A stretch of 21,291 bases of DNA from a virus. The stretch is taken from IMG/VR virus record IMGVR_UViG_3300010388_000054, positions 1-21,291 of that record, one strand, 5' to 3'. The notes below the pieces were generated by a model that was not told where the DNA came from, did no database searches, and worked only from the letters and a program-made list of their open reading frames with translations. The position numbers and the translations under genes are program-made. This document shows, piece by piece, positions 1-20,980 of this stretch. Position 1 is the first letter of the stretch. Each line of letters begins with the position of its first letter.

Positions 1-601
1 GCTTGTGGATGTTGTTTGCAATCTGTAGAGCAAGCGTCGACTTACCAGTCTTAGGAGTTGCTACTACAACGATTAGCTGACCCTTTTGCAGACCGTTAGT
101 CACTGCGTCAATGGTCGGGAATCCAGTGGCAACACCTAGAAGTCCAGGGTTGTTCTTGCGGAAGATGTAGTCGTCCCAGCGAGACTCGGTGGTATCGATA
201 AGGTTGACGTCAGAGGTCTTGTTTAGGCCCTCTTCTTCAAGCTTGACCAGACCACTCTGCATCATCAGGAGCGCACTCTCGTGGTCCTTGTTGTTCTGGA
301 TCTCGTCGATCGCAGCTCTAACAGTGGTCGTGATGGAAAGCTTACGGCGCTTGTCTACAAGATCATCGAGCAGGTAGTCGATGGAGTCAGTTAGTTCCTG
401 AATCTGGTAGGCAGGGAAGTTTGACTTGACTACCTCTACGCTTGGAGCCTCTGCGTACTTGGAGTAGTGCGTACGCATGAATACCCATACGCGCTTGTCT
501 TCATCATCGTTGAACCAGTGGTCCGATACGTTGCGTTCGAATAGCGGTGACAGATCTCGGATCTGAATTGCCGCACTTAATAGTTTTGACTCGGTGCTCA
601 T
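1..601 (-). CDS. dnaB: DnaB-like replicative helicase, N-terminal part (cut by window edge)
   Basis: I translated this from the ATG at 601; 200 residues are visible before the left edge. Residues 1-120 form a charged, helical N-terminal region. They are followed by the entry to a RecA-type helicase core: GVATGFPTIDAVTNGLQKGQ, then a Walker A motif ATPKTGKST at residues 181-189. This order (short N-domain, 'GxxTGFxxxDxxTxG', GxxxxGKS/T) is characteristic of the DnaB/T4 gp41 family. These hexameric helicases unwind DNA at the fork and interact with primase. The start overlaps the stop of the upstream gene as ATGA (598-601), indicating translational coupling. A DnaC-type loader and a probable initiator lie upstream in the same operon, which supports the role. 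The Walker B and arginine-finger regions lie outside the window. The family call is firm; primase fusion or intein insertion cannot be judged. Confidence 0.85.
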   Translation of the reverse strand, partial: MSTESKLLSAAIQIRDLSPLFERNVSDHWFNDDEDKRVWVFMRTHYSKYAEAPSVEVVKSNFPAYQIQELTDSIDYLLDDLVDKRRKLSITTTVRAAIDEIQNNKDHESALLMMQSGLVKLEEEGLNKTSDVNLIDTTESRWDDYIFRKNNPGLLGVATGFPTIDAVTNGLQKGQLIVVVATPKTGKSTLALQIANNIHK

Positions 602-1005
602 AGTGAAGGAAAATCCAATCCCCAACGGCCGTACCGTAGGAGTCTAGCTGGCGTGTCGATCACGCCGATAAGTTCTGGACGGTAAGGTAGCTCGTCCACT
701 AGCTTGTCAACTGACTTGTAGGCAGAAGCATAGCGGAATGGATTGGTACCAAACTCATCTAGGTAGATCATTACATCTTTTAGCTCGTCCTCTGAGTGAG
801 TAAAGCTGATTAGTTCCATGGTGGTGCCTCGCTTTAGCGACACCATGTACAGGTGGCTAAGAACCAGACGGTTGTACTCTACACGCTTTTTAAGGCTAGG
901 CACAATACGCCACTTCTTTACCTTGTCCTCGTAGATGTCAGTAATAACATCTATCGTTACTAAAATACGCTGGGGCAGTGCGTTGCTGATATCGCCGTTA
1001 AGCAT
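598..1005 (-). CDS. Hypothetical protein of the replication operon (135 aa)
   Basis: I do not recognise this protein. It is soluble-looking, with no signal peptide or membrane segment. An N-terminal hydrophobic strand (RILVTIDVITDIY) resembles the first beta strand of an alpha/beta fold. The C-terminus is conserved-looking and aromatic-rich (ELIGVIDTPARLLRYGRWGL). The gene is coupled at both ends: its ATG shares a base with the stop of the SWIM gene (TAATG at 1003-1007) and its stop overlaps the helicase start as ATGA. Lying between a helicase-loader/SWIM pair and the helicase, it most likely serves DNA replication or repair, but that is inference from position only. Confidence 0.7.
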   Translation of the reverse strand: MLNGDISNALPQRILVTIDVITDIYEDKVKKWRIVPSLKKRVEYNRLVLSHLYMVSLKRGTTMELISFTHSEDELKDVMIYLDEFGTNPFRYASAYKSVDKLVDELPYRPELIGVIDTPARLLRYGRWGLDFPSL

Positions 1006-1304
1006 TAGAACACCTCTACCTTTCCATATTTAATAATGAACTCGCGGAAGGTTTGCTCGGTCTTCATCGCGGAAGTAATTTGTGAAGAAGTAACCTTATC
1101 AGAAAATTCGAACGGGTAAATTCCGTTGTTCAATTCGATACGTCCACTGACCAGCTTGACGTGCTTGCAGACCTGCTTTACCACGAACCCCGGACAATTG
1201 CACTCTAGGTTTCGTTTCTTGTCGGCACTTACCTCGAATATGTTTGGGCCTGGCGACCCCTCCTGTTGTGTCAGGAATACCTGAATCAATCTCTTATGCT
1301 TCAT
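1005..1304 (-). CDS. Small SWIM-type zinc-finger protein (99 aa)
   Basis: Residues 35-48 (CNCPGFVVKQVCKH) fit the SWIM zinc-finger pattern CxCx(n)CxH, with candidate ligands C35, C37, C46 and H48. SWIM domains are known to bind DNA or proteins and occur in bacterial SWI2/SNF2 ATPases, MuDR transposases and the Shu2/SWS1 recombination factors. Here the finger is nearly the whole protein. It is preceded by a short beta-rich segment that may position it (IQVFLTQQEGSPGPNIFEVS) and followed by about 50 residues without recognisable features. The gene is coupled by TAATG to the loader gene upstream and to the 135-aa gene downstream. A DNA-binding accessory role in replication or recombination is plausible. 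The motif is visible; the function is inferred. Confidence 0.75.
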   Translation of the reverse strand: MKHKRLIQVFLTQQEGSPGPNIFEVSADKKRNLECNCPGFVVKQVCKHVKLVSGRIELNNGIYPFEFSDKVTSSQITSAMKTEQTFREFIIKYGKVEVF

Positions 1305-1990
1305 TACTTCCTCAAGTCCGAGCTTACGTCCATGTTGACATAAATGAAAGCCTCATGGACAAATGACTGAGTAGCGGTGCCATAGTGAGTCTCCCAGTCG
1401 TCAAGCTTAACGTTGGTAGTCATAATGGTCGGAAGCCCGTTGTTGAATCGAGTGCGTAGTACGTGGTGAAGCATGTTCTTCTGCCAGCCCGAAGCGCTTG
1501 CGTGCTCCTTGCCTACATCGTCCAATATCAAGACACGGACATTGTACGCGTCATCCGCGGCCTCGCCAAGAATGCTGTTGTACAGAAGCTCGTCGTCGTT
1601 GTCGTGGGCGTCCATGATGTCACCCTTGAGGTCTAGTAGACCGTTGTAGGTGATGAAGTAGCACGGGCGGACTACGGCCTTACCTGGGGCAAAGCCGATG
1701 ACAGCAGGGTCGATGTTGCGGATGATCTCCTGGACCAGCGTATTAGCCAATGTGGTCTTACCGCGGCCAGGAAGCCCGTACAGCATCAAACCCAGTCCAC
1801 AGGTCTCTTTACCCTCAGCACGGATGATTCGGTCCTTGTAGAGGGCACTGAGCCACTTCTGGACGGCACTCATAGGTTCCGCTGGAACGTCAGTACAGTC
1901 CTCCAGAGTCCAGCCGATCTTGGCAGGCGGTAGGGACGCGATCTTGACCCACGTACGGCGTCTAGCCGGCAGTTCGTCAGGCTTATACAT
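1304..1990 (-). CDS. DnaC/IstB-type AAA+ ATPase, probable helicase loader
   Basis: This 228-residue protein has a Walker A motif at residues 72-80 (GLPGRGKTT), a Walker B at 153-160 (VLILDDVG) and a sensor-1-like segment at 188-193 (TIMTTN). The arrangement and length match DnaC/DnaI-type AAA+ proteins, which load the DnaB-family helicase onto single-stranded DNA. The N-terminal 60 residues are basic and tryptophan-containing and could be the helicase- or initiator-contacting part. The ATG start overlaps the end of the upstream initiator gene by 8 nt, and its stop forms TAATG with the SWIM gene. Initiator-loader-helicase genes in one operon parallel lambda O-P, except that this phage also encodes its own helicase. 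The ATPase call is certain; the loader role rests on fold type and context. Confidence 0.85.
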   Translation of the reverse strand: MYKPDELPARRRTWVKIASLPPAKIGWTLEDCTDVPAEPMSAVQKWLSALYKDRIIRAEGKETCGLGLMLYGLPGRGKTTLANTLVQEIIRNIDPAVIGFAPGKAVVRPCYFITYNGLLDLKGDIMDAHDNDDELLYNSILGEAADDAYNVRVLILDDVGKEHASASGWQKNMLHHVLRTRFNNGLPTIMTTNVKLDDWETHYGTATQSFVHEAFIYVNMDVSSDLRK

Positions 1991-2876
1991 CTTCGTCCTC
2001 CAATAGAGCTAGCTTGCGGTTTGTAAGCTCCTGGTCCTTGATGATAGCAGTCTCAACCTGCTCCACAGTAACCACACGCTCACGGGCAGTCTGCACCATG
2101 CTAGGGGCCTTGTACAAGAACGCACGCCATAGGTGGTTGCCGTCCTCGTACTTCTCGGCTTCGAGACTAGAGAAGAACATGTTAACCATCTCAAGCTCTA
2201 GCGCGCCGTTGGTGTCGTGCTGCTTACGGAAAGCGGATAGCGCAGGTACGAAGCGAGACTGGATAACGCTGAAGGGCTTGATGTTCCACATGTCCGCTAG
2301 GCGGTCAGAGAACTCAAAGGCCACGTCCTTGCAAGTCCAGCTAAGCGGGTCAATCTTAGATCTGTGCATCTCACGACGAGCCTCGGCTTTCTTCTCCTTG
2401 CCCTCCTGATACTCAGCCTTCCTAACTGCCTCGTACTTCTGTCGCTCGCGGAGGTCGTCATTGTCACTAGACGAGGTGCCTCCGAAGAATTCGTAACCCA
2501 TGTTTTTTTCTTTCCCTTTGACCTCGTCAAAGAATTTATTTGTAGCAGTAATAGTAGTTCTAGCTGTATAGCTATTGGAAATAGCACTTACTTGCTGAAC
2601 TGCTAAATAGCTGTTATCAGACGTGCCCACTCCGGGCACATCCGACGTGCCCACTCCGGGCATGTCCGACGTGACCACTTTTATGTTAGTTCCGCCACCT
2701 GCAAGCTTGACAATTTTGATCTTATTTCCGTCGCGTAACTCTTTCAGGATCGCCAAGCTCTTGCGCTTGCTAAGGCCCTTTTCGATCATCAGGTTACGGT
2801 AATTAATCCTTATCTCAGGATTAGATTTAAAGAATTTAAGACAGTCCCTAGCAGGGCGGCTTAGTGTGTCGCTCAC
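1983..2876 (-). CDS. Winged-helix replication initiator-like protein (lambda O-like role)
   Basis: The start is GTG at 2876, overlapping the previous stop (GTGA at 2873-2876). Residues 1-60 look like a winged-helix DNA-binding domain: RPARDCLKFFKSNPEIRINY, then a helix pair with KGLSKRKSLAILKELRDGNK and a beta wing. Residues about 67-86 are a tandem repeat (SDMPGVGTSDVPGVGTSDNS) encoded by 24-bp DNA repeats. A low-complexity linker and a charged helix (residues 145-175) follow. The C-terminal part, residues about 176-297, is helical and could contact the loader or helicase. Directly downstream lies the DnaC-like loader. DNA-binding N-domain, repeat-bearing linker and partner-binding C-domain is the layout of lambda O and related initiators. 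The exact family is not identified. A DnaT/DnaD-like primosomal protein or a transcription regulator is the alternative. Confidence 0.6.
   Translation of the reverse strand: MSDTLSRPARDCLKFFKSNPEIRINYRNLMIEKGLSKRKSLAILKELRDGNKIKIVKLAGGGTNIKVVTSDMPGVGTSDVPGVGTSDNSYLAVQQVSAISNSYTARTTITATNKFFDEVKGKEKNMGYEFFGGTSSSDNDDLRERQKYEAVRKAEYQEGKEKKAEARREMHRSKIDPLSWTCKDVAFEFSDRLADMWNIKPFSVIQSRFVPALSAFRKQHDTNGALELEMVNMFFSSLEAEKYEDGNHLWRAFLYKAPSMVQTARERVVTVEQVETAIIKDQELTNRKLALLEDEDV
2501..2678. other. Candidate replication origin inside the initiator gene
   Basis: The 24-bp repeats at 2620-2678 are GC-rich. The adjoining 120 bases (2501-2620) are about 34% G+C, markedly lower than the flanking coding sequence. 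This AT-rich part contains small dyads such as GCTATT-gga-AATAGC at 2571-2585 and AGCT-gtat-AGCT at 2562-2573. In the direction of the gene the order is repeats, then AT-rich stretch. In lambda, gene O has the same order of iterons followed by an AT-rich unwinding region. Basis: the repeats and the composition are seen directly; origin function is inference. Confidence 0.45.
2620..2678 (-). repeat. Tandem 24-bp repeats (2 full, 1 partial), each with an inverted repeat
   Basis: Two 24-bp units at 2620-2643 and 2644-2667 differ at only two positions. A third unit is truncated to 11 bases at 2668-2678, with one mismatch in the part kept. On the plus strand each full unit begins gacgtgcccactccgggca and contains a dyad: GTGCCC-actcc-GGGCAC in unit 1 (2623-2639) and TGCCC-actcc-GGGCA in unit 2 (2648-2662). 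The repeats are in frame and encode about eight residues each in the initiator linker. GC-rich tandem repeats containing dyads resemble initiator-binding iterons. Confidence 0.8.
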
Positions 2877-3463
2877 TTGCTGAGCTTACGGGTAACTTCC
2901 GCCACAATCTTTTCGGCAAGAAGGTCAGCCAGTTCGTTTAGAACTTCTTGGATGGTCTCATCTAGATTGATGACGAGGTCTGATTCGTCCTCTGGATCCT
3001 CCTGGGCGGCAAGTACTTCCTCAACCGTAATAAGCGCAGGTGCTTCCTCCACGATGTCGTGTGCGGGTGCCTGAGCCGGTTTAGGGATAATTGCCATAGA
3101 AGGCATACCAATCAAAGTAAGACCCTCGGTTAGGTCATACATACGGACTGCGAATTCTTGCGCCTTTGAGGCAGCAAGTTGACACTCAGAGTCTTCATCA
3201 TCCCAGAGCATAAAGAACTGAATCTCGTTCATCGCGGTTTCCGCAAATAAAGAATCGTAGTTATTGTCTGGGTACTGAAGTACAGGGATTTCTTTATCCT
3301 GCGCCCACTGTTCGGCCCAGACCTGTCCTTCGGATTGTTTAGATCCGTAAACAGTAGCGATCGTAACTTCATCTGATGAGTCTGCTACATCACTGATAAG
3401 AGCCTCTACATTGGCTCTAGTTGACTTTCCATTTCCAATAACCACTATGGTTACTCGTCTCAT
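2873..3463 (-). CDS. SLOG/YspA-like Rossmannoid protein, first gene of the replication operon
   Basis: This is a 196-residue protein starting at ATG 3463, behind a perfect AAGGAGGT Shine-Dalgarno at 3469-3476. The N-terminal 115 residues read as an alpha/beta fold: a first strand with a glycine-rich turn (VTIVVIGNGKST), then VTIATVYGSKQSEGQVWAEQ and a helix-strand unit ending IPVLQYPD, then FFMLWDDEDSECQLAASKAQ. This pattern resembles YspA/DprA-type SLOG domains, which bind nucleotides or nucleotide-derived signals. Residues 120-196 form an acidic tail (EEAPALITVEEVLAAQEDPE) ending in an amphipathic helix that may oligomerise. The gene is first behind the 3490-3518 promoter, and its stop overlaps the initiator's GTG. 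SLOG assignment is by pattern only and should be treated as tentative; the gene itself is secure. Confidence 0.45.
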   Translation of the reverse strand: MRRVTIVVIGNGKSTRANVEALISDVADSSDEVTIATVYGSKQSEGQVWAEQWAQDKEIPVLQYPDNNYDSLFAETAMNEIQFFMLWDDEDSECQLAASKAQEFAVRMYDLTEGLTLIGMPSMAIIPKPAQAPAHDIVEEAPALITVEEVLAAQEDPEDESDLVINLDETIQEVLNELADLLAEKIVAEVTRKLSK

Positions 3464-19966: not shown

Positions 19967-19979
19967 TGATGTATGACAA
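19952..19979 (-). promoter_or_regulatory. Candidate minus-strand promoter of the neck/tail operon
   Basis: The minus strand has -35 TTGTCA (19979-19974), a 16-bp spacer and -10 TAAAAT (19957-19952). Transcription would begin near 19945, giving a leader of about 25 nt that includes the GAAGGG ribosome site. The boxes interleave with the plus-strand promoter, and the -35 lies in the first codons of the divergent gene. Each box matches the consensus well but not perfectly. Confidence 0.45.
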
Positions 19980-20980
19980 ATTTAGTGCAGAAAGCGGTCC
20001 AATACGGCGGCAAACTAGCTCCCCTAGTGCTGTCCCAAGGCCTGACTTCCGGCACCGGTCTAATGAACCCATCAGTCTTTATCACTGATGAGGGCCGTAT
20101 CCTGGTGAACCTTCGCCACGTAAACTACACCCTCTACCACTCAGAGAACAAGCAGAGGTTCAACTCCCACTGGGGCCCGCTGTCCTACCTCCATCCAGAG
20201 AAGGATCAGGCCCTCCGTACCACTAACTACATTTGCGAGTTAAATAGCGATCTATCAATAATCAATTACGGAGTCATCGACACCTCCGAATTTGACACCC
20301 CACCGGTTTGGGAGTTTACCGGCGAGGAAGATTGCCGCTTAGTTCAGTGGGACGGTAAATTTTACGCCATCGGTGTCCGCAGAGATACCAAGCCAAATGG
20401 CGAGGGCCGCATGGAGCTCAGCGAAATTACCATCAGCGACGACTTCGCTATAAAAGAAGTATCAAGAATCCGCATCCCCGCCCCGGAGCCAAACGACTCG
20501 TACTGCGAGAAGAACTGGATGCCTATCCTTGACAAGCCTTATCACTTTGTAAAGTGGACTGCGCCTACTGAGGTAGTCCGTACCTATCCAGAACTTCCGC
20601 CGCGTTGTGAACAAGTCTTACTGAAGCCGGGCCTCACACCGCCAGCAGACCAGCGCGGCGGATCCCAAGTGATCAAATGGGGCAACATCTACCTAGCTAT
20701 CACCCATGAGGTAGACCTGTTCAAGAACTACCTAAAGCAGAAGGACGGCATCTATCGCCACCGTCTAGTTCTTTGGGACGACCAGTTCAACTTAATAGGA
20801 CTGTCCCCAGAGTCGTTCTCATTCCTAGACGCCCGAGTAGAGTTTGTAGCAGGAGCCGCCAAGTTGGGCGATGACCTACTAATTAGCTTTGGTTTCCAAG
20901 ACAACGCTGCTTTCGTGCTCCGTGTACCTAAGCCTGTAATCGAAGACATGATCAGTGAGGCTCTTAACTATGAACGCTAA
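19973..20980 (+). CDS. GH130-like beta-propeller protein (glycan phosphorylase-related)
   Basis: This 335-residue protein has the strand pattern of a five-bladed propeller and segments like those of GH130 mannoside phosphorylases: EED at 118-120 with CRLVQWDGKFYAIGVRRD (compare 'vEDPRi...ygkyYltYta'), KNWMPILD at 180-187, GGSQVIKWGNIYLAITHEVD from 229, and ARVEFVAGAAKLGDDLLISF from 287 followed by 'GFQDNAAFVLRV' ('G...YyGaaD...a.v'). GH130 enzymes break or make beta-mannosides using phosphate. Conservation is too loose to claim the catalytic activity. It is followed by a TPR/glycosyltransferase-like gene overlapping by 11 nt, so a sugar-modifying role (virion or nucleotide glycosylation, or host glycan binding) is likely. 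It is transcribed away from the tail operon from a leaderless-type promoter. Confidence 0.6.
   Translation: MTNLVQKAVQYGGKLAPLVLSQGLTSGTGLMNPSVFITDEGRILVNLRHVNYTLYHSENKQRFNSHWGPLSYLHPEKDQALRTTNYICELNSDLSIINYGVIDTSEFDTPPVWEFTGEEDCRLVQWDGKFYAIGVRRDTKPNGEGRMELSEITISDDFAIKEVSRIRIPAPEPNDSYCEKNWMPILDKPYHFVKWTAPTEVVRTYPELPPRCEQVLLKPGLTPPADQRGGSQVIKWGNIYLAITHEVDLFKNYLKQKDGIYRHRLVLWDDQFNLIGLSPESFSFLDARVEFVAGAAKLGDDLLISFGFQDNAAFVLRVPKPVIEDMISEALNYER

Follow-up and report, generated by a model that had tools for sequence, protein, structure and literature searches.

Does the initiator gene of this phage carry, within its own coding sequence, the origin at which replication starts? The stretch of DNA analysed here, the window, is a viral contig of 21,291 bases (IMG/VR record IMGVR_UViG_3300010388_000054) in which we found no end repeats, and a first-pass annotation of its letters had proposed a lambda-like origin inside one of its genes. 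After comparison with relatives of that gene, we consider it fairly probable that positions 2516-2678 are a phage replication origin lying inside its own initiator gene, lambda-like in arrangement but not lambda-homologous.

The initiator gene, its neighbours and its relatives

The candidate replication initiator gene (1983-2876, minus strand) encodes a protein of 297 amino acids, predicted to consist of a winged helix (wHTH), a disordered linker and a helical C-domain. An AlphaFold2 model built on a 34-sequence alignment (mean pLDDT 65, pTM 0.40) places the wHTH at residues ∼5-67 and disorder at 70-138, followed by the helical C-domain. The winged-helix-coding part occupies 2676-2864 (minus strand, codons 5-67; pLDDT mostly 71-86), and in a PDB profile search it resembled winged helices of the MarR/Lrs14/CodY type. 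A fold search with the initiator returned generic wHTH matches only, none of them with an E-value below 0.2. The first-pass annotation had a DnaC-like loader and a DnaB-like helicase following the initiator gene, and PHROG matches support both assignments: the loader gene (1304-1990, minus strand; E 4e-26) overlaps the initiator stop by 8 nt, and the helicase (2-604, minus strand; 9e-25) is a fragment cut by the contig end. Both are indeed downstream, but the order requires correction since two small ORFs lie between loader and helicase. A 99-aa ORF in this interval (1005-1304, minus strand) shows a weak SWIM zinc-finger match (E 0.03) that falls below the Pfam cut-off. At the other end of the initiator gene, a 196-aa ORF (2873-3463, minus strand) overlaps its start by 4 nt; it has no Pfam match and only a weak match to a PHROG of unknown function.

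Used directly as a query, the single initiator protein found no relatives; it had no tblastn match among named phages, and a search of 84,980 cellular genomes likewise revealed no relatives of the initiator and hence no host link there. Relatives were reached via the loader first and by an alignment-based search thereafter. The loader search of IMG/VR identified 80 related loci (149 in all), in which the initiator gene immediately precedes the loader wherever the contig reaches that far, and addition of more distant relatives by the alignment-based search gave 92 distinct initiator genes. The window and its relatives are all incomplete metagenomic contigs. An exact 17-mer scan of IMG/VR gave four matches; none came with an initiator homologue that convinced us (best tblastn E 0.011), and we rejected them as coincidental. 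Since the named relatives of the loader are mostly actinobacteriophages (25-36% identity), the loader sequence suggests an actinobacterial host. Judged by its tail-sheath gene, the window phage is contractile-tailed. A 335-aa ORF (19973-20980, plus strand), on the opposite strand to the structural genes, belongs to no Pfam family and has only a weak match to a PHROG of unknown function (E 0.018). A literature search, mainly of openly accessible papers, returned no description of the family or of its palindrome.

DNA elements within the linker-coding region

Because AlphaFold2 places disorder at residues 70-138, the repeats and the AT-rich segment encode a disordered linker. About 120 bp of 34% G+C had been noted after the GC-rich repeats in gene direction, and our measurement agrees (34.2% over 2501-2620). 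The conserved AT-rich segment itself (2533-2609, minus strand; 31% G+C) is a candidate unwinding element, ranking 1 of 212 among 100-bp stretches of the window for low stability and 3 to 12 of 793-885 in relatives. We measured silent-codon identity among 27 non-redundant close genes as the share of pairs with the same amino acid that also have the same codon. This share was 0.72-0.93 over codons 85-126, where G+C is as low as 26-38%, and 0.43-0.58 across most of the initiator gene (up to 0.67 in one wHTH stretch). Five distant groups, aligned separately, likewise show elevated silent-site constraint at this position. The first-pass annotation had suggested silent-site conservation in relatives as a check on the 24-bp repeats; DNA-level constraint was indeed found, but its maximum falls on the AT-rich segment and not on the 24-mers. 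Within the disordered linker, Asn101-Ser102 does not vary across an alignment whose members are as little as 24% identical to the window protein, and almost every gene encodes the pair as AATAGC. Recombination through the AT-rich segment could account in part for its low silent divergence, but is unlikely to be the whole cause, because the constraint persists among groups whose proteins are 22-43% identical to that of the window.

A 19-bp motif, WATAGCWRTACAGCTAGTA, occurs twice within this segment in the close group. In the window, copy 1 (TTTAGCAGTTCAGCAAGTA, 2589-2607, minus strand) and copy 2 (AATAGCTATACAGCTAGAA, 2558-2576, minus strand) lie 31 bp apart; copy 2 contains the dyad TAGCT-ATAC-AGCTA and is overlapped by an inverted repeat, GCTATT-TCC-AATAGC (2571-2585, minus strand), that is absent from some relatives. 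The spacing is 30 or 31 bp in most genes and 34 or 40 in two. At 31 bp, the spacing of most close relatives, the copies read in different frames (ATA GCA GTA CAG CTA GTA and AAT AGC AAT ACA GCT AGT A), so that protein duplication cannot account for them; in two subgroups the spacing is 30 bp and the copies are in frame. Outside the initiator gene the motif was absent at up to 3 mismatches from five relatives of 79-88 kb. Out-of-frame repeats were present in the linker of 11/34 representative genes, compared with 0.3 expected from other segments and 1.2±1.0 under synonymous randomisation.

Right after the AT-rich segment lies a palindrome with a 3-nt spacer, CTTTGAC-GAG-GTCAAAG (2516-2532, minus strand), which covaries across the family. 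Arms of at least 6 bp were found in 84 of the 92 genes, against 2.7±1.5 (maximum 7 in 200) in synonymous randomisations. We identified 30 distinct stem-loops spread over all three codon phases, with compensatory changes giving CCTCGAC/GTCGAGG, TCTCCGAC/GTCGGAGA, CACGAAC/GTTCGTG, GCGAAC/GTTCGC and ATCGGG/CCCGAT. Among pairs 1-6 of 33 distinct 19-mers, three are A-C and one is G-U when read on the gene strand, which gives no sign of an RNA strand. On these sequences we regard the element, with moderate confidence, as a DNA palindrome or hairpin rather than an RNA hairpin; computed as single-stranded DNA, the hairpins have energies of -4 to -7 kcal/mol. An intrinsic terminator at this position was considered and rejected: a terminator-like call was made on the antisense strand of the window, but the T run is missing in distant groups.

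On the winged-helix side, the AT-rich segment adjoins a GC-rich 24-bp repeat (2616-2639, minus strand), followed by a second unit 92% identical to the first (2640-2663, minus strand) and a partial third, GTGGTCACGTCGGAC (about 2664-2678, minus strand), which has an equivalent half-site in type 3-5 relatives. G+C is 66.7% over 2616-2678. The first-pass annotation had described two repeats and a partial third just after the winged-helix region; the number stands and so does the place, codon 67 at the end of the modelled wHTH, but the repeats start at 2616 and not at 2620. Tandem 24-mers of at least 22/24 identity occur nowhere else in the window (shuffles give 0), and a 20-mer search with 3 mismatches returned just these two sites in the window, with 0 expected. 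Of the dyads claimed inside each 24-mer, one is perfect (GTGCCC-GGAGT-GGGCAC, 2623-2639) and the other has one mismatch. They are weak evidence, since the encoded VPGVGT already fixes four of the six pairs; we also set aside their statistics, as against synonymous randomisation every odd spacer gives a somewhat raised score, and make no spacer-specific claim. Dyads and AT-rich flank together had been taken to favour a DNA function, and it is the flank, constrained at the DNA level, that bears this out.

By wHTH the close group divides into five types, and each type carries a distinct set of repeats or dyads in the same position. These upstream GC-rich repeats vary in sequence and number, yet they follow the winged-helix type in natural domain swaps, which exchange wHTH and repeats together and have their junctions at the AT boundary. 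In the swap pair L006/L024, for example, nucleotide identity is 88% in the C-domain, 99% in the AT-rich segment and 54% in the wHTH, with the junction at the repeat/AT boundary. This shared inheritance may be plain linkage, since wHTH and repeats are neighbours and linkage alone could explain it. Distant groups have different repeats there: L124 has a perfect 10-bp inverted repeat, and L060 has GGGGCATACAG in different frames at the GC-rich repeat position. As judged from these alignments, the 24-mers are the type-specific, fast-changing part of the locus and the AT-rich segment is its conserved core.

A GC-skew switch near the locus had also been predicted. Total cumulative skew does show a local or global minimum near the initiator gene in four long relatives, but there was no consistent switch at 4-fold sites of same-strand genes, where 1 of 4 genomes reached p<0.01 (p = 0.005 at 10 kb). 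Since the minimum vanishes at 4-fold sites, it is probably a matter of amino-acid composition, and we take GC skew neither as proof of an origin nor as evidence against one.

A candidate origin and its alternatives

The initiator gene holds an arrangement of the origin type: repeats with dyads (two and a partial third, the dyads being statistically weak) beside an AT-rich, easily melted neighbour, with DNA-level constraint beyond the protein code. From the compared sequences we infer protein binding, unwinding and a replication start at 2516-2678. The N-terminal winged helix would bind the GC-rich repeats specific to its type, and this binding would open the adjoining AT-rich segment, with help from the conserved 19-bp repeats, which are separated by about three helical turns. 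At the opposite end, the palindrome with its 3-nt spacer may form a hairpin in the opened strand or mark the edge of the bubble, and the C-domain would recruit the DnaC-like loader and the DnaB-like helicase, whose genes lie a short way downstream. Finally, a ribosome start just after the palindrome would allow the same gene to yield the C-domain alone. We favour the origin reading because it covers all the DNA features together: repeats that go with the wHTH type, a segment that would melt, a hairpin, and an adjoining loader and helicase.

The candidate internal translation start (2499-2515, minus strand) consists of GGAAAGAAAAAAAC and then ATG (2499-2501, codon 126). The codon at this position is ATG, GTG or TTG in 92/92 genes; where it encodes Val it is always GTG (background 20%), and where Leu, always TTG. 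The mean Shine-Dalgarno (SD) energy is -8.7, compared with -1.9 elsewhere and -6.7 under synonymous randomisation, while that of the window itself is weak (-5.3, rank 67/277). Comparison supports constraint on the internal start, and we infer that the gene probably yields the short form, the C-domain alone, as well. That the C-domain can stand alone is indicated by gp100 of the Streptomyces phage GiJojo (L179:2331-2807), which lies directly before the loader, gives an E-value of 2.7e-4 against the C-domain profile (in a search of very small size) and has no wHTH match. This protein, which starts LGYDD and is annotated as hypothetical, is a candidate loader partner in Streptomyces phages. The linker, then, may be a former intergenic region turned coding.

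With an SD sequence and a start codon immediately downstream, the region might also serve to control a second product, and the main rival to an origin is accordingly a promoter/operator with a 5′ leader inside the gene. The winged helix would regulate a promoter in the AT-rich segment for a separate mRNA encoding C-domain, loader and helicase, with the palindrome as a leader hairpin or regulator site. We consider this unlikely, though it has real attractions: the internal start lies just downstream in every gene, usually with a strong SD, the C-domain is a stand-alone gene in GiJojo, and AT-rich DNA and MarR-like wHTHs suit regulation. Against it, a sigma70 promoter in the AT-rich segment was sought and rejected, none being present on the gene strand in the window, and inspection by eye across the groups revealed no -10/-35 pair. 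A promoter would not usually contain two 19-bp repeats at a 31-bp spacing. The palindrome keeps a near-fixed distance to AATAGC (48-60 nt in most) and not to the internal start, from which it lies about 11-17 nt in most groups and about 36 nt in two; the scarcity of G-U pairs and the lack of mRNA-strand bias likewise argue against an RNA hairpin.

Still less probable, in our estimation, is that the 24-bp repeats merely duplicate a disordered linker, TSDxPGVG, in frame and have no DNA function. It is true that the units are in frame and the linker they encode is disordered, that two changes, one silent and the other coding, separate the copies, and that type 5 relatives (L006, L013, L029 and L036) have one unit fewer. 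However, the number of lambda-type iterons likewise changes in frame (PMC7466680), and duplication leaves unexplained the silent-site constraint, the out-of-frame repeats, the neighbouring palindrome and the fact that each wHTH type keeps a distinct set of repeats or dyads in the same position; it can explain the extra 24-mer only. The conserved DNA could instead serve packaging, recombination or segregation, or be a hot spot at which recombination homogenises the AT-rich segment; this would suit the swap junctions at the AT boundary but is highly improbable, since AATAGC, the palindrome and their near-fixed spacing persist at 22-43% protein identity to the window, beyond what exchange alone would leave, and a place within an initiator gene, next to loader and helicase, is more in keeping with replication.

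Building on the origin reading, we tentatively suggest, as something well short of an even chance, that these loci form a new compact class of phage replication locus. In it, a wHTH gene and a gene for a helicase-recruiting C-domain would have been joined in frame across a shared origin, which would still work as DNA through type-specific binding repeats, a melting segment and a DNA hairpin maintained by compensatory changes; the old start of the second gene would still be used, giving a full-length initiator and a stand-alone loader partner, and winged helix and repeats would be swapped as a specificity cassette.

Comparison with known systems

Origins inside genes have been studied extensively in lambdoid phages, with few reports from other phages. 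In the present case some 90 relatives from an uncultured phage group, in which lambda O homology was not detected, appear to reach the same arrangement, and their diversity provides covariation evidence that is unobtainable from a single genome. The family offers exchangeable cassettes of putative origin specificity and a covarying hairpin that can be tested for helicase or primase loading, and annotators should be aware that these initiator genes probably conceal a second start for a protein. The long and short forms recall TrfA-44 and TrfA-33 of plasmid RK2, a long and a short initiator made from an in-frame internal start, although the origin of TrfA lies outside its gene. This likeness concerns the two forms, of which the short is predicted here, and we do not claim homology.

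Some family members match the PHROGs 'replication initiation O-like' (1e-5) and 'DnaD-like helicase loader' (3e-6). These DnaD-like and O-like PHROGs (phrog_186, phrog_678 and phrog_270) are wHTH-containing replication proteins, and the matches are weak, occurring in 6-7 of 34 members (O-like in 6/34); the window initiator itself matches none of the three. The DnaC-like loaders of GiJojo and of the Mycobacterium phage Phrappuccino are 32-35% identical to the window loader. In GiJojo the C-domain is a separate gene with no wHTH match nearby, and no C-domain is detectable next to the Phrappuccino loader.

The closest likeness is to lambda and the Stx phages, where the iterons are imperfect inverted repeats in the middle of gene O beside an AT-rich tract and differ in number in frame (PMC7466680). 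The window shares the layout of their origin in gene O: a DNA-binding domain, dyad repeats, an AT-rich tract, a C-terminal part and the loader gene next. This much of the lambda O-like arrangement proposed in the first-pass annotation holds, whereas homology to O does not (there was no O-family Pfam match and no tblastn match among named phages), nor does a P-type loader, that of the window being a DnaC/IstB-like AAA+ protein. Unlike lambda, whose P acts on the host DnaB, the window phage encodes its own DnaB-like helicase. Beyond the lambda layout, the family has conserved out-of-frame AT repeats, a covarying palindrome with a 3-nt spacer and then an internal start, and the universal presence of that start downstream is new here.
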